From NCBI GenBank assembly GCA_030533405.1, contig JAUNJF010000014.1:16004-80003 (forward strand): 64,000 bases of DNA. Direction: 5' to 3'. Each line of letters opens with the position of its first letter. Position 1 is the first letter of the stretch. The DNA is from Eubacteriales bacterium. GTDB taxonomy: Bacteria > Bacillota > Clostridia > Lachnospirales > Lachnospiraceae. Shown piece by piece: positions 38,275 to 54,302 of the stretch. The position numbers and the translations under genes were made by a program. Below the pieces are notes generated by a model. That model had not been told where the DNA came from and searched no databases. It saw only the letters and a program-made list of their open reading frames with translations.

Positions 38275-38499
38275 AACCATTCTTTTTATATGTAAACCAC
38301 TGGGAACTACTCAAACTCTTGATTTTAATTTCCATACCCATATGATAGGGTGGATAAACGGCTTAAAATCAAGGGTGTTTTGTATGTAATTGATGTGGTT
38401 TACTGGGTTTGTGGAAGTTTTATTGTCATTTTATTGTCAGTATTTAACTATAAATCTTATCTATCTTCACATCATTTCATTATTCCTTCAAAGCCTTTG

Positions 38500-39507
38500 C
38501 TATAATCGCTCTATCAACTTTTTTTGAACATCATCAATTTCCATTCCAAATATATGTATCTTTTTTCTTAACGCTTTCCATTCATCAATGGATATTTTAA
38601 AAGAATCAACATGTTGTGCACAACTATCCGGACATTTACGTGCTCTTAGTTGCTTCATTGTATCATAATACAAAATATTTTTTTGCATTTTACATACGTC
38701 AAGTTTTTTATGCGCCAAAGTATTTCTTGCTTTAACAATTTCAGATAAATATTGCCCTATTGTTATTTCTGAGAAAGTTAAATCAACATCAAATTCTATC
38801 ATCTTAGCAAAAATTTCATACTTTAACTCTATAGGAAAGAGTTCACTACTCAATCCCAAAACCTTGTTAATACTTTTAATTCCATCTTTTTTCAAGTTTT
38901 CTAACGTATCGTCAATCTGCGTAGAAAATTTATCTTTTTTATTCTCCATGTATCCAATAAGAATTTCAGTAATTTCTTCTTTTTGCTTGGATGTTAAGTC
39001 TTCAAACTTTTCCATTATATATGATTTTACTGTAAAATCATTTTCAGATGTTTGATCCATGAGATAGCCTCTGATATTCGACAAGGATGTCAAACATTTT
39101 GCATTTTTGCTAATAAGCATATAGCTTTTATCATCAAAATTATTCTTATTTGCAACATACACTCCCTCAAATGATCCCACATCTTTTTCAATGGTTTCTC
39201 TAATTGATTTTTCGTTATCTGATGAATAAAATAAAATATCCGCATTTATTTTCTTTGTTCTAAGCATTGATATTAATTCACTTCCCACAACTCCCCATGA
39301 TAACGAATAATCAATAAAATAAATGTCAAATAATTTAAACCCATCCTCATTGTTACTCATTTTCTTATAGAAGTCATTGACGTCCTGAATATAATGAAAC
39401 TTTACTGAGATACCACTATCCTCAGCGTATCCTTCTAAAATTTCTTTAGCTTCCTCATAATAAGTTGATGTATCTTCAACCCATAGTATATTTAAATCAT
39501 ATCTCAT
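38500..39507 (-). CDS. Receiver-domain protein of the R-M operon
   Basis: 335 residues. The N-terminal 130 residues look like a receiver: NILWVEDTSTYY (acidic pair Glu11/Asp12), DIYFIDYSLSW (acceptor Asp66), ILFYSSDNE (Ser95/96) and VANKNNF (Lys121). All key positions of a phosphorylatable receiver are present, though spacing is unusual. The remaining 200 residues are helical and of no known output family, with no HTH seen; ARNTLAHKK near 262-270 resembles the RN..aH turn of HEPN-like bundles. It overlaps the kinase-like gene upstream by 11 bp, so the two form an obligate pair. It is the last gene of the operon. Confidence 0.8.
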   Translation of the reverse strand: MRYDLNILWVEDTSTYYEEAKEILEGYAEDSGISVKFHYIQDVNDFYKKMSNNEDGFKLFDIYFIDYSLSWGVVGSELISMLRTKKINADILFYSSDNEKSIRETIEKDVGSFEGVYVANKNNFDDKSYMLISKNAKCLTSLSNIRGYLMDQTSENDFTVKSYIMEKFEDLTSKQKEEITEILIGYMENKKDKFSTQIDDTLENLKKDGIKSINKVLGLSSELFPIELKYEIFAKMIEFDVDLTFSEITIGQYLSEIVKARNTLAHKKLDVCKMQKNILYYDTMKQLRARKCPDSCAQHVDSFKISIDEWKALRKKIHIFGMEIDDVQKKLIERL

Positions 39508-41683
39508 ATTTTTTAAACCTCACCATTAAATCAAAACCTTTAGTTTCTTCTAGATTGATATCTACTGTACCTTTTAATTCTTCTTCAACAATACTTTTAA
39601 TATGATATAAACCTACTCCGGTTCCAGTAAATGTATAACCCTTTCCAAATTCAAACAGTTCACTTACATCTTCAATATTAGGCTCCAAACCATCTCCATT
39701 ATCAATAAAATTTATTGTGTAAAAATCCCCATCCCTATTCAATACTATTTTCAATAATGTAGCATTATATTTTATTGAATTACTTATTACATTATCAAGA
39801 ATAACAGCAATATCTTGGGGAACGAACCTAACAATAACACCGTTTTCATCTTCTCTTAGTACTTCAACTTTTATATCCTCATTTTGAGCCAAGACATTTT
39901 CACAATACTCTTCAATAAATTCAAATAAATTGTCTTCAATAAATTCTTCTTTAGTATTGAATTTAGCCATCGCACTATATTCCAAAACAGCTTGCATTCT
40001 TGAATTTAAATAAGATATTTTTTTTAATAAATTCCACGCATCATCTTCTTTAAATTTACCACGTTTCAATTTGTTGACATTGTTTTTTATAACTTTAGAA
40101 ATGGTAGATGCATTTATACGAATCATATGCAAACGTTTTGCAAAATTTAGTTGATCATCATCTAGTGAGTTAATCAGAAAATGATTTCTTTTCTTCTCGC
40201 TACCCAAATTTACTGACAATTTTTCCGCTCTATTTACTGCCAGTTGTTTTTCTTTTTCAGCTTCTTTTTGCTTTTTTTCTGCTTCGGCTTTCTTTTGTTC
40301 CGCTTGTTTGGCTTGTTCTTCAGCCTTTCGACGTGCTGATTCCTCTTGTATACGTTTTTCTTCTTCTTGTTTCCTTAGATTTTCTTCATAATCTTCATTT
40401 TCTTTCCTGATTTTCTGTCCTATATCATTTCTAACTTTAAACATTGCATTGACAATAGGATCAATTAATGATATCAACAATTCTACACGTTCATCATCCA
40501 AGAAATCTTGACGGCTTGATGTCGCAATATCTGGCAAATCATCATCATCTAAAATATTGAAAGATATATCTCCTTCTATATAATTCGATCCAATCTGTGT
40601 ACTAGGATGCATTTCAAAAAAATCAGCTACAGCCAATTTATTTCTAACATATATTCTTAATTTGTTGGGTTGATAAATATCATTTCTGATAAATCTCTTG
40701 TCTATAGCATTCTTTACTTCAATTGTTGAATGCACACCAATCCATCCATGCAATTCGTATTCTTTCTCTATTAATTCTCCATTCTCTGTTTTAAATTCTT
40801 TCTTTCCTTTGTAACAAAAATCATCCTTTCCGTAAACAATCGTATCCCTTTTTTTATTTGCAATATGTTCATATTTGGACAACCATTTATACTGAATATA
40901 TTTACCAATAGATTTATTATCACTATCTCCTGTATTATCATATATCGCATAAAAATTCTTATATGCTACATTTTTTTCTACCTGTTCAAATTTAACTTTT
41001 GATTTATTTTCTGTTTTTACAGCTACATATATTTTAGCTGTCAATTCATCTACCAAATAATAATCTGCAAACACTCTTTTTAATGCTTCTATTCTCTTTG
41101 TTCCATTCCTTCTTAAATCAACATTATTCAATACAATTGCTGTTCCCTGTTGATTTTGCTCCCATAAATTTTCATTTATCAAATTAATCTTTTGACTAAT
41201 TCTATCGAGTTTTGGAAAATCTGAATCTTGATATTTAGAAAGATTTATTTCCCATTGATTAATTCTCGAATCACCTTTCTTTTTGGTAAGAATATAGTAA
41301 TTATTTGACAAATACAACGCCGCCAATTTACCTATACCCTTTCGTCCCATCAAATTCTTTTTTTCTTCTTCAACAACTTCCTCATCATTTCTCTTATTTC
41401 TACCTATCCACACATATTTACTCGCCAAATCATTGTAATCCATTCCTAATCCGTCATCAATTATTTCGATAATTGAATGTTCCTTATCGGACATGTCAAT
41501 ATATACATACACTTTTTTTGCTTTTGCATCTAAACCATTTGCAACTAATTCTGATATGGCATTAGCTGCATTACTATACAAGTTTTTCCCCAAAAGTTTC
41601 AGCGCTGCATACGAAAAATCAAAATAAATAGCATTGTCCGTATTTTTACTATTAACTTCTTTTTTATTATCAGGTGCAACCAT
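39497..41683 (-). CDS. Dual GHKL ATPase: MORC/MutL-like N-terminus, histidine-kinase-like C-terminus
   Basis: 728 residues. N-terminal GHKL ATPase: NAISELVANGLDAKA (Glu45, Asn49, Asp52), IIDDGLGM (77-81) and GRKGIGKLAAL (113-123), as in MORC, MutL and Hsp90; an S5-like transducer region follows (to about 420). A charged coiled coil runs 425-490. The C-terminal module has a helical DHp-like segment with FAKRLHMIRINAS (His519) and a second GHKL domain: N-box ILDNVISNSIKYN (628-640), DNGDGL (661-666) and GTGVGLYHIK (687-696). Two ATPases of different type in one chain, paired with a receiver protein, suggest a DNA-clamp-like sensor that signals by phosphotransfer. It starts behind AAAGGATAGAAAGC. 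Confidence 0.85.
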   Translation of the reverse strand: MVAPDNKKEVNSKNTDNAIYFDFSYAALKLLGKNLYSNAANAISELVANGLDAKAKKVYVYIDMSDKEHSIIEIIDDGLGMDYNDLASKYVWIGRNKRNDEEVVEEEKKNLMGRKGIGKLAALYLSNNYYILTKKKGDSRINQWEINLSKYQDSDFPKLDRISQKINLINENLWEQNQQGTAIVLNNVDLRRNGTKRIEALKRVFADYYLVDELTAKIYVAVKTENKSKVKFEQVEKNVAYKNFYAIYDNTGDSDNKSIGKYIQYKWLSKYEHIANKKRDTIVYGKDDFCYKGKKEFKTENGELIEKEYELHGWIGVHSTIEVKNAIDKRFIRNDIYQPNKLRIYVRNKLAVADFFEMHPSTQIGSNYIEGDISFNILDDDDLPDIATSSRQDFLDDERVELLISLIDPIVNAMFKVRNDIGQKIRKENEDYEENLRKQEEEKRIQEESARRKAEEQAKQAEQKKAEAEKKQKEAEKEKQLAVNRAEKLSVNLGSEKKRNHFLINSLDDDQLNFAKRLHMIRINASTISKVIKNNVNKLKRGKFKEDDAWNLLKKISYLNSRMQAVLEYSAMAKFNTKEEFIEDNLFEFIEEYCENVLAQNEDIKVEVLREDENGVIVRFVPQDIAVILDNVISNSIKYNATLLKIVLNRDGDFYTINFIDNGDGLEPNIEDVSELFEFGKGYTFTGTGVGLYHIKSIVEEELKGTVDINLEETKGFDLMVRFKKYEI

Positions 41684-41688
41684 GCTTT

Positions 41689-42912
41689 CTATCCTTTCAA
41701 CAATTTTTCAATCTGTTTTGCCAATATCAAGGCCATTAATGGTGGAACAGCATTTCCAATCTGCGTAGTCACTCTACCTACTCCACCTCTGAACTCAAAC
41801 CAATCAGGAAACGATTGTATTCTTGCACCCTCTCTGGGTGTTAATGCTCTATTTTGAGAATAATGTATACATCTTAACCCTGATGGTGCTGTCATATTAT
41901 TCGTTATAGTAGGTGCTGGTATATTTTCAATCAATCTGCCATATGTATTCTTATAACCAGAAGTCAATTTGTATTTTTTATCAATTACTCCTGATTGAAC
42001 CAATTTATTGAATTCTTCCTTGCCTTCTCCCTGTTTAACATTTTGAATCACAGTCCTTATCTTGTCCCCGTATACTCCACAATAATGTTCCGTCAACACA
42101 TTGTTATCCCCTCTCATCAATCGTTGATATTCATTTTGAGGCTGTGATGTATAATTTGTAATATTTTGATTTTCCAAAACCACCGGCAAATCCGATATAG
42201 CATCTTTAATAGAAAGTTTGTCATTCTTAATTGCAGTTGGATACTTCCATTCTATATCTAAATCCTTTCTTATTCCAACAACAAAAACTCTCTCCCTATT
42301 CTCTGGCACACCATAATCTACCGTATTAAGAACCTCACAACTAATATTGTACCCCAAATCATCTGTTATAAACGCAAATTTTTCTTTAATAATGTCAATT
42401 ATTTTTCTCCCATATCCTTCCACAACAGGATACTTTCTTTCACTTCCTGTTTCCTTATTCTTCTTCTTCTCGTATACTATATTCCCCTCACTATCTGTCT
42501 TATAGAAGGTTTCTCTCATCGAAAGCATTCCTTTGACATTCTCAAAAAGAAAAATCTTAGGTTTTGCAATACTTAAAATTCTTAAATATTCTTCATATAA
42601 TGTTGCCTTTTCATCAAACACCCTCTGTCCTACTGTACTAAAAGACTGGCAAGGAGGACCTCCAATAATTAAATCTACTGGCTCATCTCCTATTAATTTC
42701 TCAATTCTCTCCTTATTCAAAAGTTTTATATCTTCATTTAACATTGTTATATCTGGAAAATTTGCTTCAAACGCCTCAGCTGCATATGGATCTATTTCGT
42801 TTGCAAAAACAAAAGAATTCTTTCTGTTTCTTACAAATCTATTCTGTTTTGTTCTGTAATAGAATCCAAAGGTTAACCCTCCTGCACCCGAAAATAAATC
42901 TATAATTCTCAT
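41689..42912 (-). CDS. DNA (cytosine-5)-methyltransferase B
   Basis: 407 residues. Motif I IDLFSGAGGLTFGF (4-17), motif IV GGPPCQSFSTVGQR with catalytic Cys88, motif VI FENVKGM (ENV 124-126), motif VIII ENRERVFVVGIRKD, a variable target-recognition region (about 230-320), motifs IX/X with LTPREGARIQSFPDWF and QIGNAVPPLMALILA. All catalytic motifs are intact. Together with methyltransferase A it probably protects the two strands of a non-palindromic site, or two sites. Start after AGGAGGATTT; 5 bp before the dual-ATPase gene. Confidence 0.95.
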   Translation of the reverse strand: MRIIDLFSGAGGLTFGFYYRTKQNRFVRNRKNSFVFANEIDPYAAEAFEANFPDITMLNEDIKLLNKERIEKLIGDEPVDLIIGGPPCQSFSTVGQRVFDEKATLYEEYLRILSIAKPKIFLFENVKGMLSMRETFYKTDSEGNIVYEKKKNKETGSERKYPVVEGYGRKIIDIIKEKFAFITDDLGYNISCEVLNTVDYGVPENRERVFVVGIRKDLDIEWKYPTAIKNDKLSIKDAISDLPVVLENQNITNYTSQPQNEYQRLMRGDNNVLTEHYCGVYGDKIRTVIQNVKQGEGKEEFNKLVQSGVIDKKYKLTSGYKNTYGRLIENIPAPTITNNMTAPSGLRCIHYSQNRALTPREGARIQSFPDWFEFRGGVGRVTTQIGNAVPPLMALILAKQIEKLLKG

Positions 42913-42944
42913 AAATCCTCCTGCCTTTGCTACTTATTTCAAAA

Positions 42945-44222
42945 TTATGCCATCATTCTTTTCTCAGTTTTGCGAACAATCACATGCTTTATATTTTCTT
43001 GTTCTTTCGCAAATTCCGCAATTGGCTCAGCAACCGCTAATGCCAATCTAACAGGAACTGCATTTCCAATCTGCTTATAAACCAAATCAAGTTTGGAATT
43101 CTCATTCCTTTTACTTGTTCCTCTACTAAATTCATACCAATCTGGAAAAGTCTGAATTCTAGCTATTTCTTTAACAGATAATCGTCTGTTATTCTCTTCT
43201 CCATCACTAAAAATATATCTGTCTTTTCCAACATGTTCCATAGGAGCTCCTGCCGGATGAATAGGAGCCTGTCGACCTGAAGCTTGAATCGTAAAGCTTG
43301 GCTGGGACCAATTCTTTTTTCTGTTTCGCGACATAAAAATAGTCGAATAAGAACCTACAAAATAATCTCCAGGATCCTCTTCCAAATCACCAATAGCATC
43401 TCGAAGTGTTACAACCTCTTCCAAACCTTCAACTCCATAACCATGAGTAGCCTCTGGGTGAACATATTCAAAATCAATATCATTACGCACCCCCACAAGA
43501 ATAACTCTCTCTCTTATCTGTGGTACTCCGTATTCTGCCGAATTAAGGAGCTTATGATATACCGTATAACCAGCAGCAGAAAAATCCTGAACTATCTGCT
43601 TAAACACTTCCCCTTTACCCAAAGTCATCATGCCTTTTACATTTTCAGCCACAAAAATCTTTGGTTTGCTCTGCATTAAGCAACGAATAAAATGAAGATA
43701 TAAAAAATTTCTTTCATCATCCACTAATCTTGGTCCTGCCTCCGAAAATCCAGGGCATGGGAAACCGCCAAGAACGATATCAGCTTGTGGAAATTCCTTT
43801 ATTTTTCTTATATCACTCTTATCCATATATATGTATTTTCCGGCATTTTGAGCATATGTCTCTCTTGCTTCATCAAAAATATCATTTACATATATAGTAT
43901 TGAAAACATTATTATTAATGTTCTCATCAAACACTCTTTTATCTGCAAATGCAGACTCCATTACATCTTCTCCCATAACAGCCTTCAATCCAGCTAATTC
44001 AAAACCTAGATCAAGTCCTCCACAACCAGAAAACAGCGACAACAGATTCCATTTATTAGGATCATACTGAAGTTTATCAAATTCAATTTCCTCACTACAA
44101 TCTGCAAATGCCTGTCTTTCTTGTTCAATTTTTTCATTAAGAAGTTTTTTTACTTCATCTACTTTATAATCAGGAGCAGGCTTAAACTTACCTCTCCCTC
44201 GTTCTTCCAATATTACAGCCAT
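42945..44222 (-). CDS. DNA (cytosine-5)-methyltransferase A
   Basis: 425 residues. An N-terminal helical extension of about 55 residues, then motif I LLSLFSGCGGLDLGFELAG (60-78), motif IV GGFPCPGFSEAGPR with catalytic Cys156, motif VI AENVKGM (193-199), motif VIII QIRERVILVGVRND, and motif X QIGNAVPVRLALAVAEPI. It differs clearly from methyltransferase B in the recognition region, so the two read different sequences or strands. The recognition site cannot be read from the sequence. Start after AGAGGTGAAAAC, 10 bp after the nuclease gene. Confidence 0.95.
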   Translation of the reverse strand: MAVILEERGRGKFKPAPDYKVDEVKKLLNEKIEQERQAFADCSEEIEFDKLQYDPNKWNLLSLFSGCGGLDLGFELAGLKAVMGEDVMESAFADKRVFDENINNNVFNTIYVNDIFDEARETYAQNAGKYIYMDKSDIRKIKEFPQADIVLGGFPCPGFSEAGPRLVDDERNFLYLHFIRCLMQSKPKIFVAENVKGMMTLGKGEVFKQIVQDFSAAGYTVYHKLLNSAEYGVPQIRERVILVGVRNDIDFEYVHPEATHGYGVEGLEEVVTLRDAIGDLEEDPGDYFVGSYSTIFMSRNRKKNWSQPSFTIQASGRQAPIHPAGAPMEHVGKDRYIFSDGEENNRRLSVKEIARIQTFPDWYEFSRGTSKRNENSKLDLVYKQIGNAVPVRLALAVAEPIAEFAKEQENIKHVIVRKTEKRMMA

Positions 44223-44232
44223 GTTTTCACCT

Positions 44233-45114
44233 CTAATTTATTCTATCCGTTCCAGCGTTATTATCATCTATATCATCTGTATTCTTGATGTTAAGCTGTT
44301 TCATATAATGCAATAATCGATTTGCAACTTCATTGCCCTTAACAGTCAATGGTTTGTCATATACTAATTTAGGCACTAATTTATTATCTTCAGCATCCCA
44401 AAGAACTTGAACAGATAAAGGTCTGTCTCCATCCCACTTTTCTGCAAAAGAACGATAATTCAATGCTTTACATGCAAAGTAAATATCTGGGTGCATCATA
44501 ACATATTCTTCAATCGGAACCATTTTATCAATCACTTCTTGAGCAGAATTAATGTTTTCGTCCATCAAAATATAATTTGCAACACCACTATTCTCAATTA
44601 CTTGACCAGCAACCGTAGCATTTCTTTTATCTTCAGATAAATTACCACCCGCATATACATCAATAACCTGTTCATCAGTTAAAAGCATTTTTCCTGACAA
44701 GTCTCCACTACTTTTATTCAACAATTCGAACTTCCAACCTAGTGTAATTGCACCCTTTTCAGTTCGCTTGAATTTATTCTTGTATATCAGCATTCTTTCA
44801 GCAAATCTATCACTAATTGCTGTGGTTGATTGCTCTATTATATTTGCCCAGTCGTTGCCAAATAGTTGCTCTGCTCTTTCAGCACTCATCTTGTTCTCTA
44901 TAAAATCAGCATTTTCCTTTTTGTATGAAATCTTTATCTCAATTTCATCTAATTCCGATTTTGCCTGAATATAAATGTCAGTCTTAGGTTCTCCTTTATG
45001 GCAGGTTGGTTTTCCAGAAAGAACTACAGAATAATTCTTACCTTGAAAAACAAATTGAGTGCCTACTGACATAAATGCTAATATTCTTCTTTCTGCATCT
45101 CCAAAATCTCCCAT
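44233..45114 (-). CDS. Probable type II restriction endonuclease (PD-(D/E)XK)
   Basis: 293 residues. The segment HKGEPKTDIYIQAKSELDEI followed by EIKISYKKENADF has the order P-K-T-D46 ... E59-I-K61 of the PD-(D/E)XK nuclease core, with the two strands and spacing typical of restriction enzymes; ADFIENK after it is common in the helix that follows. The C-terminal part (ALNYRSFAEKWDGDRPLSVQ, then LTVKGNEVANRLLHYM) is likely to contribute target reading. It stands directly upstream of the two methyltransferase genes, with 10-bp gaps on each side. The start follows AGGAGGTCAGTT. No close family is recognised; assignment rests on motif and context. Confidence 0.75.
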   Translation of the reverse strand: MGDFGDAERRILAFMSVGTQFVFQGKNYSVVLSGKPTCHKGEPKTDIYIQAKSELDEIEIKISYKKENADFIENKMSAERAEQLFGNDWANIIEQSTTAISDRFAERMLIYKNKFKRTEKGAITLGWKFELLNKSSGDLSGKMLLTDEQVIDVYAGGNLSEDKRNATVAGQVIENSGVANYILMDENINSAQEVIDKMVPIEEYVMMHPDIYFACKALNYRSFAEKWDGDRPLSVQVLWDAEDNKLVPKLVYDKPLTVKGNEVANRLLHYMKQLNIKNTDDIDDNNAGTDRIN

Positions 45115-45124
45115 AACTGACCTC

Positions 45125-45598
45125 CTAATAGTATTTTCTACAAATATCTTCTTTAGCTACACTATCAAATGAGTTAACTTGTAATTCCCCCACATCAACT
45201 GCATTTGCTTTTATATACTCAAACAAGTCTGGATAATTCTCTAAATAATAGTACATCTGAGGACATACAAATTTAGGATTGAATTTACGAAGTTCATCCA
45301 AACTTATTTCTTTTGTCATTTGAAAGGATAGAACTGGCATAGCATACTCATGTCTCGTAAGAAAATCGTCTACTCTTGCACAAACCTCATCATCCTCCCG
45401 ATACTGCTCTTTCCATGTGTTGATGTTAATCTTACGCCCCAAATGAATTTTTCCGACAATCATTTTCATAGGGCTACTGACATACATATATGCCATTATC
45501 TCCTCATCTGGAAATGTTCTTCTATATTCGTATATTTTGCTTCCATCTTTTATTCTATTAAACCACTCGGGCTTAAAGCTTAATAACATTGTTCTCAT
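45125..45598 (-). CDS. ASCH/PUA-like domain protein, first gene of the R-M operon
   Basis: 157 residues. LLSFKPEWFNRIKDGSKIYE followed by YRRTFPDEEI, YMYVSSPMKMIVGKIHLGR and a C-terminal helical part matches the ASCH pattern (kPe....I..G.K..E.R...p......Y.s.P...ivG). ASCH and related PUA-like folds bind nucleic acid or modified bases, so it may read methylated DNA, or be a small regulator of the operon. It is the promoter-proximal gene, 10 bp before the nuclease gene. Start ATG 45598 has a modest site (AGGATGATTCAGTA). Confidence 0.7.
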   Translation of the reverse strand: MRTMLLSFKPEWFNRIKDGSKIYEYRRTFPDEEIMAYMYVSSPMKMIVGKIHLGRKININTWKEQYREDDEVCARVDDFLTRHEYAMPVLSFQMTKEISLDELRKFNPKFVCPQMYYYLENYPDLFEYIKANAVDVGELQVNSFDSVAKEDICRKYY

Positions 45599-45818: not shown

Positions 45819-47462
45819 TCACCTTCTGAAAACCCTCTCAACCACCTGTTCCATCTTCTCCAAGAACATCTCTAGAATAGTTTTTCCTTTAATCGTAAAC
45901 TGCTTCATAAACTCATATGCCTGTTCCAATTTATACCTTAACTGCCTATTCTCCTGCTTTAACGCTTCATTCTCCATCGCTATCTTAAGACTTTGCTCTC
46001 GAAGCTCGTAATGTGCTCCCAGCGGATCGTTAGCAAACATCTTAGCTATGCGTTCTAATTCCTGTGCCTTTCGTTCTAGCATCAGCACATTCGCTTCCTT
46101 ATCTTCCATTACCTCTATTGCTATCTTAGCACGCATAACAGCATCCTGTTCTTCAGCTTTAGCCTTTTCTAACACCGCTCTTGAATCGTCTATATCTTCG
46201 GTCAAGCTTTCAGATTCTCTTTTCTTATCTGTAATCTCTGTATTCAGTTCATCTAATCTTTGGTTTGCAACTCCAATACTATCAACAACCTTTTCCAAGT
46301 CAGTCATTTTTACTGCCATCACTCGTTTATAGTCATCTATGCCATCTGACAATGCCTTATATGTGTTTGTCATAGAGTTCACCTTTTGCTCAACATTCAC
46401 ATATTCTTGTTGCTTTTCAGCTAATTCTTCTTTGGTAACCCCTACCAATTCTTGACTCTCACGCAGTTCTTGATTTGTTTGTGCAAGCTCTCGCTTTTCT
46501 ACTTCTACCTCACTTTTTATTTCATTCAACTTCTCTTTTTCTCTATCAGCAGCATTAGAATAAAAATCACGTCTAAACTCTGCCCGTTCCTGCATCAGTT
46601 CTGCTTCTTCTGCTCGTTTAGCTGCCATTTCACGTCTATAATCAGATAAGAGCAAATTGCCACGCGGATTAGAACCTTTATAAAGTCGTTCCCAACCATA
46701 TCGTTCTTCCATCATCGCCTGCAAAACCATTTTCTGTTCTTCGACCCAGTCCACACCACCAAATGATACTCGTTTCTTTTGCGCTACCTTTTCGCCTTTT
46801 TCATTTGTCTGCCACACCAGATTTCCATCTTTATCCGTAGCTTGCGCATCCTTTGTATAATAACCCATACCCTCAAATGCTTTTGTAAATGCATTCTGAA
46901 CGGAACACCCTCGCTTCATATTTCTTACATACGGTATATATGTCATATGAACATGGGGAGAATTCTCGTCCCCATGATAGGCAGCTTCGTATATTACAAG
47001 ACCACTTTCAAATGGTGGCTCCCAGTCAGGATCACTCATGTTTTCTTCTGTAACCATACATATGTTAGGCTGTTGCAAAATATAAACCATAAAATCTTTC
47101 AACAATTCTTCAGCCTTTTTTGCATCCTCAGGATTCAAATCAAAACCTGTATCCATCATATCGCCAATCTGCCATATAATTTCATACAAAGGCTTTTTCT
47201 TCTTGTCCTGCATTATTTTGTCGTAGTAGGTTGCAGGCGCACGCTCACCCCTGCTCTTCTTAATTTGAATCCCTCTCCATTTTTGATAGGACTCCTCAAA
47301 CAACTTCTCATAAATCTGTTTAAGTGAAAACTCTCCACATCTAAAAATAAAATTATCACCCAGTCTGCTCACGTCTGAATTTGGTGGAATATGCTCTCTT
47401 CTGTTATGCGATAGATTTGGAATACTCTCCATCGCGCCACTAATTGTTTTCTTCTTTGCCAT
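45819..47462 (-). CDS. MobV (Mob/Pre) family relaxase
   Basis: 547 residues from ATG 47462, which follows AAAAGGAGGAGATTTTG. The catalytic histidine motif YEAAYHGDENSPHVHMTYIP (about 183-202) fits HxDExxPHxH of Mob/Pre relaxases, and HNRREH near the N-terminus is the family's first motif. The C-terminal 270 residues are a long coiled coil (RAEEAELMQERAEFRRD onward). The protein nicks at oriT and leads the strand into a helper conjugation channel. The probable oriT lies just upstream (47583-47637). Confidence 0.9.
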   Translation of the reverse strand: MAKKKTISGAMESIPNLSHNRREHIPPNSDVSRLGDNFIFRCGEFSLKQIYEKLFEESYQKWRGIQIKKSRGERAPATYYDKIMQDKKKKPLYEIIWQIGDMMDTGFDLNPEDAKKAEELLKDFMVYILQQPNICMVTEENMSDPDWEPPFESGLVIYEAAYHGDENSPHVHMTYIPYVRNMKRGCSVQNAFTKAFEGMGYYTKDAQATDKDGNLVWQTNEKGEKVAQKKRVSFGGVDWVEEQKMVLQAMMEERYGWERLYKGSNPRGNLLLSDYRREMAAKRAEEAELMQERAEFRRDFYSNAADREKEKLNEIKSEVEVEKRELAQTNQELRESQELVGVTKEELAEKQQEYVNVEQKVNSMTNTYKALSDGIDDYKRVMAVKMTDLEKVVDSIGVANQRLDELNTEITDKKRESESLTEDIDDSRAVLEKAKAEEQDAVMRAKIAIEVMEDKEANVLMLERKAQELERIAKMFANDPLGAHYELREQSLKIAMENEALKQENRQLRYKLEQAYEFMKQFTIKGKTILEMFLEKMEQVVERVFRR

Positions 47463-47582
47463 CAAAATCTCCTCCTTTTATCTGTCTAGTGGGTATGTAA
47501 AATTCACCAAACCATTCGTCTAGGAGCAGTCCTTTTAACTTTCTTTGGGCAGATTCAAAAGTGCTATTTCCTAAAGTAATGT

Positions 47583-49164: not shown

Positions 49165-49618
49165 CAAATTCACCTCTTTCTATTTTGTTCATGCACTGCC
49201 TTAGATTCTGCAATTTCTTTTCTGCGCTATATCTCTTTCGAATAATATCAATCCGATCTAACAGCAACTCAGAAATTTCTTCCCTATTATCCTTTGCTTC
49301 CAACTCATAACCTTGTAATATTTCTAGCATTGTTCGAATCGGAGTTAACAATTCTTCTTCCATCTCAGATATGCTTTGCAACCTTTCTAGCTCCGTTTCA
49401 ATATGCTGAAGATTTTTTCGAAAGGTTAGCATCATCAACGGATTACCTACTGTCACAATTTTCTGATGAAGCACACTATGAACAAGGTAATCCTGCTTAC
49501 TTTGAAATCCCGAAAGTTTCACGCGATTATCTAGTTCATCGCGTTCCTCTGGAGAAACACGAAATGCAACCACAACATTTCTCCAGCGATTCTTATCGTC
49601 TTTATTCTTTTTTGACAT
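49139..49618 (-). CDS. MobC-like relaxosome protein
   Basis: 159 residues. The N-terminal ribbon-helix-helix VVVAFRVSPEERDELDNRVK followed by SGFQSKQDYLVHSVLHQKI matches MobC-type accessory proteins that bind oriT and assist the relaxase. A helical C-terminal half carries many charged residues. It overlaps the integrase stop by 17 bp and the ATPase start by 26 bp, so all three are cotranscribed. Confidence 0.82.
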   Translation of the reverse strand: MSKKNKDDKNRWRNVVVAFRVSPEERDELDNRVKLSGFQSKQDYLVHSVLHQKIVTVGNPLMMLTFRKNLQHIETELERLQSISEMEEELLTPIRTMLEILQGYELEAKDNREEISELLLDRIDIIRKRYSAEKKLQNLRQCMNKIERGEFDGRTEDNT

Positions 49619-50696
49619 TGATCATACCCTCCCTTTCTTGGCTTAACTTATCTGCCATTTCTGTTTGCACTGTAGGAAATAAATGTGCATATCGATACGT
49701 TATCTTTACAGCCTCATGCCCAACTCTTTCAGCTATTGCAAGTGCCGAATAACCAAGTTGAATCAGCAGCGACACATGTGAATGTCGCAAATCATGCACT
49801 CTTATTTTCTGTAATCCTGCCAGCTTTGACCCTCTTGCCAATTCATTATGCAGCGAGGTTTTAGAAATTTGAAAGATTCTATCATCCGGCTTATATCCAT
49901 ATAAACCTTTTGTGTATTCTTCCATTTCCTCTACCAAGAAATCTGGCATAATGATAATTCGATTACTCTTTCTCGTCTTAGGATCAGTGATTACATCTTT
50001 TCCTTTTATCCGTTGATACGATTTATTGATTCTTAATTTCTTATTCTCAAAATCAATATCCTCGGTTGTAAGTGCAAGCAACTCTCCACATCGAATTCCT
50101 GTCCAGTACAACATTTCAAATGCATAATAGAATTGTGGTTTGTCTGCTATCTGCTCGATAAACAGTTGATATTCGTCCTGTGTCCAAAATAACATTTCCT
50201 TTGATTCTTCTTTACCAATTGTTCCAGCCTTGCGAGCTGGATTAGAAGATAATCCATAAAAATCGACTGCATGGTTAAAGATTGCACTTAACTGTGCATG
50301 AATCGTTTTAATATATGTGGGAGAATACTTCTCGCCATTGGACTTTCTCATATTCAATAATTCTGTTTGCCACTTTCTCACATCAGCCGGCTTGATAGAA
50401 TTAATTGGTTTCTTTCCAAAGAACGGAAGTATTTTCTTCTCCACCACTATCACCTTACTATTGGTGCTATTCTCTTTTATTCGTGCAGAAATGTCCTCCA
50501 AGTAAATCTTGTAGAAATCCTCGAAGGACATATTCAAGTCATTATCCTGCTGCAGTTTAAAAGAGCGTTCCCAATCTAAGGCTTCACTTTTCTTCGCAAA
50601 ACCACGCTTGGTCTTTTGCTTTCTGTTGCCTAAAATGTCTTTGTAATAAGTTCTTACTTCCCAGCAACCTGTCTTTTCGTTCTTAATAACTGCCAT
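49602..50696 (-). CDS. int: Tyrosine recombinase/integrase of the element
   Basis: 364 residues. N-terminal AP2-like arm-binding part (CWEVRTYYKDILGNRKQKTK), core-binding SAM-like domain (about 55-150), and catalytic domain with Arg202 (WTGIRCGELLAL), HDLRH (His301/Arg304), His327 (VGHEAVKIT) and nucleophile Tyr336 (YRYAHL). The ATG overlaps the xis stop (TGATG). Target: the 3' end of guaA, judged from the flanking repeats. Its gene is 3.6 kb from the guaA junction, with the XRE gene and HEPN operon in between. Confidence 0.95.
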   Translation of the reverse strand: MAVIKNEKTGCWEVRTYYKDILGNRKQKTKRGFAKKSEALDWERSFKLQQDNDLNMSFEDFYKIYLEDISARIKENSTNSKVIVVEKKILPFFGKKPINSIKPADVRKWQTELLNMRKSNGEKYSPTYIKTIHAQLSAIFNHAVDFYGLSSNPARKAGTIGKEESKEMLFWTQDEYQLFIEQIADKPQFYYAFEMLYWTGIRCGELLALTTEDIDFENKKLRINKSYQRIKGKDVITDPKTRKSNRIIIMPDFLVEEMEEYTKGLYGYKPDDRIFQISKTSLHNELARGSKLAGLQKIRVHDLRHSHVSLLIQLGYSALAIAERVGHEAVKITYRYAHLFPTVQTEMADKLSQEREGMINVKKE

Positions 50697-50890
50697 CACG
50701 ATACTCCTTTCTTAGCTACTCCGTAGACTCGCTCTTCAAAATATTGTCTACTCACTCTGCCTCTAACAGTATAGAAACCTTTTTGCTTAAGTTCTTCATT
50801 CAAGGTACGAATGAGCTTATAAGCACTAGCTTCTGAGATATCAAGTTCCTTGACGATCTCTTCCACTCTAATGAACGTTGTTTCAGCCAT
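50696..50890 (-). CDS. xis: Excisionase-like small DNA-binding protein
   Basis: 64 residues from ATG 50890 after GAGGTGAGGATT. A single winged HTH: RVEEIVKELDISEASAYKLI followed by RTLNEELKQKGFYTVRGRV. The size, basic charge and one-base overlap with int are typical of excisionases, which bend DNA and steer the integrase toward excision. It shares the repressed promoter at 50980-50957. Confidence 0.8.
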   Translation of the reverse strand: MAETTFIRVEEIVKELDISEASAYKLIRTLNEELKQKGFYTVRGRVSRQYFEERVYGVAKKGVS

Positions 50891-53993: not shown

Positions 53994-54302
53994 ATTTATC
54001 ACCTCCTTTTTTTATAAATATAACATATGAAACATAATATATCTATTTATTTTATTTCAAATAGGATATAATAGAAGTATCAATCCTATTATACCCCAAC
54101 GCTTACGATACCACATGATAAAATGATACAACACAGAGCAGATAAAATATAGTGCAGTATTTATCACTCCCCCACGAAGAAACCACTTCAGTCTTTGAAG
54201 AAAGCACCGACGAATAGCCTATTTTTTATTGTCATTCTATTGTCACGCCGACACAAAACAAGCCACAAACCGCGTATTTACGCGACTTGTGGCTTTTACT
54301 TT
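53994..54302. other. Right end of the element: promoter region and integrase arm sites
   Basis: No gene is seen. It holds an ATAGGAT/ATCCTAT inverted repeat (near 54060-54090), AT-rich sequence that probably carries the promoter of the zinc-ribbon operon, and the tandem TTATTGTCA arm-type repeat at 54225-54245. Chromosomal sequence starts at the core at 54303. Confidence 0.5.

Follow-up and report, generated by a model that had tools for sequence, protein, structure and literature searches.

The window analysed here, a stretch of 64,000 nucleotides from a Lachnospiraceae genome (assembly GCA_030533405.1, contig JAUNJF010000014.1, positions 16,004 to 80,003), carries at 38500-45598 six minus-strand genes that, by their open reading frames, form one packed operon (Table 1). 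The last three encode a C5-methylase (methylase B), a MORC-type ATPase fused to a histidine kinase (MORC-kinase) and a receiver protein with a HEPN-like C-terminal half (REC-HEPN), and these three genes are the subject of this analysis. In order of transcription the genes are separated by 10, 10, 32 and 5 bp and the last pair, MORC-kinase and REC-HEPN, overlaps by 11 bp, so that the six tightly packed genes and the overlap named in a preliminary description of this DNA agree at base resolution and are not due to chance. Purine-rich stretches resembling ribosome-binding sites appear, in our reading, ahead of the gene starts, and a promoter-like site and a terminator-like hairpin may flank the operon on both sides, neither of them above shuffled counts.

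Table 1. Genes, protein parts, key codons and putative signals of the operon, in coordinates of the window
Feature	Position	Strand	Basis and remarks
ASCH-like protein, 157 aa	45598-45125	-	Pfam ASCH (weak), PADLOC; first in transcription order
Type II restriction nuclease-like protein, 293 aa	45114-44233	-	PADLOC REase_II 5e-53; second gene
C5-methylase A, 425 aa	44222-42945	-	Pfam DNA_methylase; third gene; assigned to the putative appended restriction-modification unit
C5-methylase B, 407 aa	42912-41689	-	Pfam DNA_methylase; fourth gene; partner methylase of the module
MORC-kinase (MORC-type ATPase plus histidine kinase), 728 aa	41683-39497	-	Pfam, motifs and model; fifth gene
Sensor (MORC/BbrUII-like) half, residues 1-430	40394-41683	-	Family match and predicted structure
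Kinase half (DHp and CA), residues 495-728	39500-40201	-	Alignment and predicted structure
Predicted phospho-acceptor H519 codon	40127-40129	-	30/30 proteins; aligns with the HK853 phospho-histidine
REC-HEPN protein, 335 aa	39507-38500	-	Receiver residues ~1-141, HEPN-like residues ~142-335; sixth gene
Receiver phospho-acceptor D66 codon	39310-39312	-	32/32 proteins
HEPN motif R261-N-T-L-A-H266	38710-38727	-	R and H 32/32, N 31/32
Promoter-like site upstream of operon	45800-45772	-	Such matches no commoner than in shuffled sequence
Terminator-like hairpin, 13 pairs, downstream of REC-HEPN	38274-38245	-	Such matches no commoner than in shuffled sequence

A conserved three-gene unit

Relatives were collected by the receiver motifs and by tblastn with the full receiver protein, which gave 31 loci (2 of 120 viral and 29 of 90 genome stretches); five of them were also query seeds, and L049 begins at the receiver gene and was left out of the layout counts. 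The unit of C5-methylase, MORC-kinase and REC-HEPN is conserved in all 30 testable loci, and in 25 of 25 when the seed loci are omitted. The MORC-kinase gene lies directly upstream of REC-HEPN in every case, intact in 29 loci and split in one (L034), with the two genes overlapping in 26 of 29 loci and lying 2 bp apart in three. A C5-methylase gene is adjacent in all 30, upstream on the same strand in 28 and convergent downstream in two. Co-occurrence of the kinase and receiver genes, which the preliminary description had left as a check, and the tie of this pair to C5-methylases are thus both borne out. According to record titles and tree labels, the 29 genome loci belong to Bacillota, Spirochaetota, Calditrichota, Bacteroidota, Verrucomicrobiota, Melainabacteria, Campylobacterota, Pseudomonadota and Parcubacteria, and the same layout is found at a locus of another genome (L036). 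A cultured Alkaliphilus (L043) is among the members. The unit is rare: among 391 genomes of the class 20 gave matches, of which five are full-length receivers (the window's own counted) and 15 partial, and among 392 of the order six gave matches, the real ones being the window's own, G136 and G142. L005-L006, which look like LytTR-type regulators, and L007, which looks like a LysR protein, were dropped as receiver relatives. The window receiver protein has no relative in the plasmid collection, nor has that of L034 in the phage or plasmid collections.

The nuclease and the ASCH gene of the window operon do not appear to travel with the unit: a scan of 36 relative loci, with flanks of up to 10 kb, gave no homologue of either protein at E 1e-3. 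When one or two neighbours on each side were taken, 101 genes in all, DNA_methylase was the most frequent Pfam family with a count of 4, and no nuclease family exceeds three among the 25 families listed per library. Some loci show variations of their own. On the viral-collection contig L034 (L034:4021-8004) a transposase-like gene on the opposite strand splits the MORC-kinase, while methylase and REC-HEPN stay open, and in two spirochaete loci (L046:5564-7955 and L050:12309-14700) an extra C5-methylase gene pair lies downstream of the module. A Klebsiella variicola plasmid (L010:4658-9545) has an N6-methylase, a MORC-kinase in several open reading frames, a protein of 168 aa that consists of a receiver only, and one more gene; this is a related layout with another output.

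The sensor-kinase and the receiver-HEPN protein

In the MORC-kinase, Pfam recognises HATPase_c_3 at residues 40-169 (5.9e-26) and HATPase_c at 623-725 (1.3e-18), and E45, N49, D76, G78, G80, K115, H519, N631, N635, G689 and G691 are invariant in all 30 MORC-kinases. In a fold search of the predicted model, residues 3-245 match SMCHD1 (17.9) and MORC2 (17.5), and with its GHKL motifs and this MORC-like fold the sensor half is of the MORC/paraMORC type. The kinase half is of the HisKA type, having N and G boxes and a DHp helix pair (509-540 and 546-568 in the model) around the phospho-histidine; residues 430-495 are mainly one long helix. Pfam, motif residues and folds therefore agree with the preliminary description, which had seen a MORC-type and a histidine-kinase ATPase in one protein, and its candidate phospho-His519 is conserved in 30 of 30 and aligned with the phospho-histidine of HK853. 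The helix pair and the receiver fold on which that description depended are both present, and the kinase fold is recovered as well. Within its own genome the 728-residue protein matches only itself.

The receiver protein gives a Response_reg match in Pfam of 1e-3, under the cut-off of that family. D12, D66 and S95 are each present in 32 of 32 proteins and position 11 is E in 29 and D in three, so that, of the receiver residues first proposed, D12, D66, S95 and largely E11 stand, K121 being the exception (see below). What had been overlooked is the C-terminal half, which looks like a HEPN ribonuclease domain with the motif R261-N-x-x-x-H266. The Rx4-6H motif of the HEPN superfamily is present in all 32 proteins, a count partly conditioned on the search, since tblastn favours likeness over the whole length. 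The model of the full receiver protein is mainly helical beyond residue 141; its fold-search lists are filled by the receiver part and lend HEPN no support. The top viral row is a phage "response regulator protein", whose alignment extends over its length at a root-mean-square deviation of 19.6 and is a lead only. In a PADLOC scan of the 32 proteins the best HEPN-type match was CARF_HEPN at 0.013, in one of them.

Pairwise distances were compared on 30 complete sets, window included. The methylase correlates with the MORC half (r 0.94) and REC-HEPN with the kinase half (r 0.88), the other cross pairs lying at 0.57-0.72, and each correlation beat 2000 of 2000 permutations. The partial correlations are 0.91 for methylase and MORC half, 0.79 for REC-HEPN and kinase half, 0.40 for methylase and REC-HEPN and -0.25 to 0.13 for the other three. 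This contrast holds without locus L067 and without near-copies (20 sets kept). Compared with the window in overlapping segments, the kinase protein of L067 is 40-73% identical as far as roughly residue 500, 13-14% identical for 481-620 and 17-34% identical after that; its methylase is 66% identical, its REC-HEPN 19%. L067 therefore appears to be a natural chimera that switches at the junction of sensor and kinase. Its kinase protein is encoded by one open frame on a contig from a metagenome, and an assembly chimera is unlikely.

The MORC half also resembles the BbrUII/HgiDII family of restriction enzymes (NCBIfam), at 7e-48 over residues 24-478. It lies outside that family, with a score of 163.6 against a cut-off of 550 and positions 6-416 of the 659 of the profile covered. 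Three members of the other subclade match at 9e-19 to 6e-25 over about 200 residues, and residues 23-424 share 26% identity with a complete protein of the BbrUII family that is encoded next to its methylase. A tree was made of 28 sensor halves; in it the window subclade groups with the seven rows of BbrUII type, and the 17 others stand apart from these (100/100). Long branches were flagged in this tree and the exact place of the subclade is weak (85/81). The unrooted methylase tree of 28 separates three groups and does not indicate which two are closest; a joining of the window subclade to the BbrUII methylases, once read from it, was withdrawn. With the BbrUII/HgiDII enzymes the unit shares the family match of the MORC half and the methylase gene just upstream, but here a histidine kinase makes up the C-terminal half of the protein, and the next gene is REC-HEPN. 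In our reading the kinase would have replaced the nuclease half of a BbrUII-like enzyme, the reverse being possible.

A predicted relay to RNA cleavage and its alternatives

Gene order, domains, conserved residues, the recurring unit and the co-variation of methylase with MORC half and of REC-HEPN with kinase half were established computationally; we infer that DNA is sensed in a way that depends on methylation, that phosphate is transferred, that pairing activates the effector, that the effector is an RNase and that the unit has a role in defence. It is rather probable that the unit is a restriction-like system for abortive infection and/or addiction in which a His-Asp relay ending at a HEPN RNase has taken the place of the endonuclease. 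Its core would be methylase B, the MORC-kinase and REC-HEPN. Methylase B would mark host DNA at its own recognition sequence, and the MORC half would survey DNA for the same sequence in unmethylated form and, on finding it, undergo an ATP-driven change of its clamp state. This change would turn the kinase half on, leading to phosphorylation of H519 and transfer of the phosphate to D66 of the receiver. Phosphorylated receivers would then pair and join two HEPN domains as an active RNase. Receivers often dimerise when phosphorylated. Since HEPN RNases are typically dimeric as well (PMC13092281; papers with PMC numbers are cited here from parts of their text), pairing of the HEPN domains driven by phosphorylation is the simplest switch. 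RNA cleavage would finally stop the cell, so that unmodified phage DNA would end in abortive infection and loss of the methylase would be punished (addiction). In the window the unit would share its operon with an ordinary restriction unit of nuclease and C5-methylase A (plus ASCH) on a mobile element. The wider reading, in which a restriction-modification (R-M) branch has turned to signalling, with a BbrUII-like MORC sensor of unmethylated DNA and with a kinase in place of the nuclease that phosphorylates a receiver-HEPN RNase, spread over nine phyla and built of two exchangeable halves (methylase with sensor, kinase with effector), comes close to an even chance.

Several results weigh against a relay to a HEPN RNase. 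As to HEPN itself, the window domain alone scores 28.0 bits against a Pfam cut-off of 28.4, the other proteins give weak matches in a listing that goes up to E 10, neither a PDB profile search nor NCBIfam finds HEPN, and hhalign to one HEPN-like protein gives a probability of 3.3 with the motif alone aligned, a search for relatives of that protein finding none. Kinase and receiver are both atypical, since H519 is directly followed by an acidic residue in only one of 30 proteins (M520 in the window) and the Lys of receiver beta5, position 121, is K in two of 32 (the window among them) and R in 30. The kinase model is modest (predicted local distance difference test score 65). Without the window subclade (four rows) all six distance correlations lie at 0.82-0.89, and the contrast between the pairs therefore rests mainly on deep exchanges.

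The MORC-kinase might instead follow a PrrC-like reverse logic, restraining the HEPN protein in a complex or as a phosphatase, an activity that histidine kinases often have as well, and freeing it when a phage disables the neighbouring restriction machinery. Release of the PrrC type is how the literature accounts for HEPN in R-M loci (PMC3710099), and the window has an adjoining restriction unit; however, this unit was not found in the 36 relative loci, so that there is usually no neighbour to guard, and the co-variation of the methylase with the MORC half points to methylation sensing, which makes the reverse logic unlikely. The relay could also be a housekeeping regulator that controls RNA processing, for instance methylase expression, with a HEPN domain that binds or mildly trims RNA. 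Tight gene coupling to the methylase would suit this, as would the existence of non-catalytic HEPN families (PMC3710099), but the R and H of catalytic type in 32 of 32 proteins, the patchy spread over nine phyla and the mobile-element position in the window render it quite improbable. We give least credence to a relay that gates the nuclease of the operon, as the preliminary description had proposed and as their shared operon in the window would allow: nuclease and ASCH homologues were not found in the 36 relative loci, the plasmid homologue of the nuclease adjoins a C5-methylase nearer to methylase A than to B (see below), and REC-HEPN carries a HEPN-like output of its own. The other branch of that proposal, an abortive response, fits the relay to a HEPN RNase, its likely effector having been missed.

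Known systems and the putative adjoining restriction unit

Pairs of HEF_HK and Response_reg_2 (PF19191/PF19192) are known from R-M loci, with 91.6% linkage in 644 regions and C5-methylases nearby (Bellieny-Rabelo et al., 2021, PMC8011034). The present unit agrees with them in having HATPase_c_3, DHp and C-terminal HATPase_c in one soluble protein, an adjacent receiver gene and a C5-methylase nearby. However, H-E is present in three of three PF19192-linked kinases read, whereas H519 lacks an acidic follower in 29 of 30. PF19191 has no match at E<=1 in the window kinase or in those of four relatives, and PF19192 none at E<=1 in the window and one, below cut-off at E 0.027, among 32 members. A search for PF19192 members found none in 299 genomes from the phylum of the window, its control being silent too, none in 6 further entries and 3 of 240 in the class of a Roseobacter genome. 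These three proteins (L072, L073, L074) are open frames of 527-649 aa without RNxxxH, in which R and H at Rx4-6H spacing occur otherwise, and we read their C-terminal output as probably not HEPN. They have a common C-terminal region, with an NLSRVGLDFL-like or related ending in at least two. A term search of the available text of PMC8011034 finds no output domain and no HEPN named. The view of the locus as under-described thus stands in part: MORC-kinase/receiver pairs at R-M loci were published in 2021, there without an output domain, and a receiver-HEPN or kinase-HEPN defence system was not found in the searchable literature, which leaves out preprints and most subscription papers.

ParaMORC ATPases occur in R-M operons (PMC2292703), and HEPN domains in R-M loci, including paraMORC-HEPN (Ymh) fusions (PMC3710099). 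As in the present unit, HEPN and an ATPase of the MORC type there lie together at a methylase locus; in the present unit, however, the two are separate proteins joined by a predicted His-Asp relay and no helicase is seen as a constant partner. Detocs, a phage defence system, also relies on two-component logic in the cytoplasm and has a receiver protein for its effector (PMC11728103), but here there is one receiver gene and no separate buffer receiver in the operon, a MORC sensor, a HEPN output and a tie to a methylase. In PrrC/RloC a HEPN RNase is likewise controlled by a DNA-surveying ATPase (PMC3710099), which is of the ABC type and in the same chain instead of a MORC-kinase acting by phosphorelay. 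A figure legend in PMC13092281 lists HATPase and REC among predicted systems untested there, which may include the present unit (see also PMC12839542, PMC7159879, PMC12137116, PMC5867850). If true, the relay would be the first known His-Asp phosphorelay controlling a HEPN toxin and would join three threads that are separate in the literature consulted into one circuit: the MORC-type ATPases of R-M systems, the pairs of kinase and receiver at R-M loci, whose output is unknown, and the HEPN toxins. The question of what MORC ATPases detect in prokaryotes could then be approached directly, autophosphorylation serving to read out the methylation state of DNA, and discrimination of self and non-self DNA would be wired to cell arrest by two-component chemistry, not by DNA cutting.

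The nuclease and ASCH genes of the window look like a second, appended R-M unit together with C5-methylase A. The nuclease has no Pfam match; its restriction character agrees with PADLOC (REase_II), while the PD-(D/E)XK site ascribed to it is not established, as in an alignment of three sequences the putative D is kept and the E of ExK lies at a different place. On a Psychrobacter plasmid, a homologue has a C5-methylase as its neighbour, and this methylase is closer to methylase A (4e-66) than to B (1e-32). The ASCH-like protein matches Pfam ASCH at 5.6e-4, just or well below the cut-off, and the PADLOC candidate family PDC-M11B at 4e-15. The 3' end of guaA, considered as attachment core, has no copy elsewhere in the window. 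An imperfect 22-bp direct repeat (21/22) lies just downstream of REC-HEPN (38418-38439) and just downstream of guaA (54224-54245). Between the two copies are a relaxase-like gene (45819-47465) and an integrase (49602-50699), and the repeats may be the ends of an integrated mobile element of ~15.8 kb.

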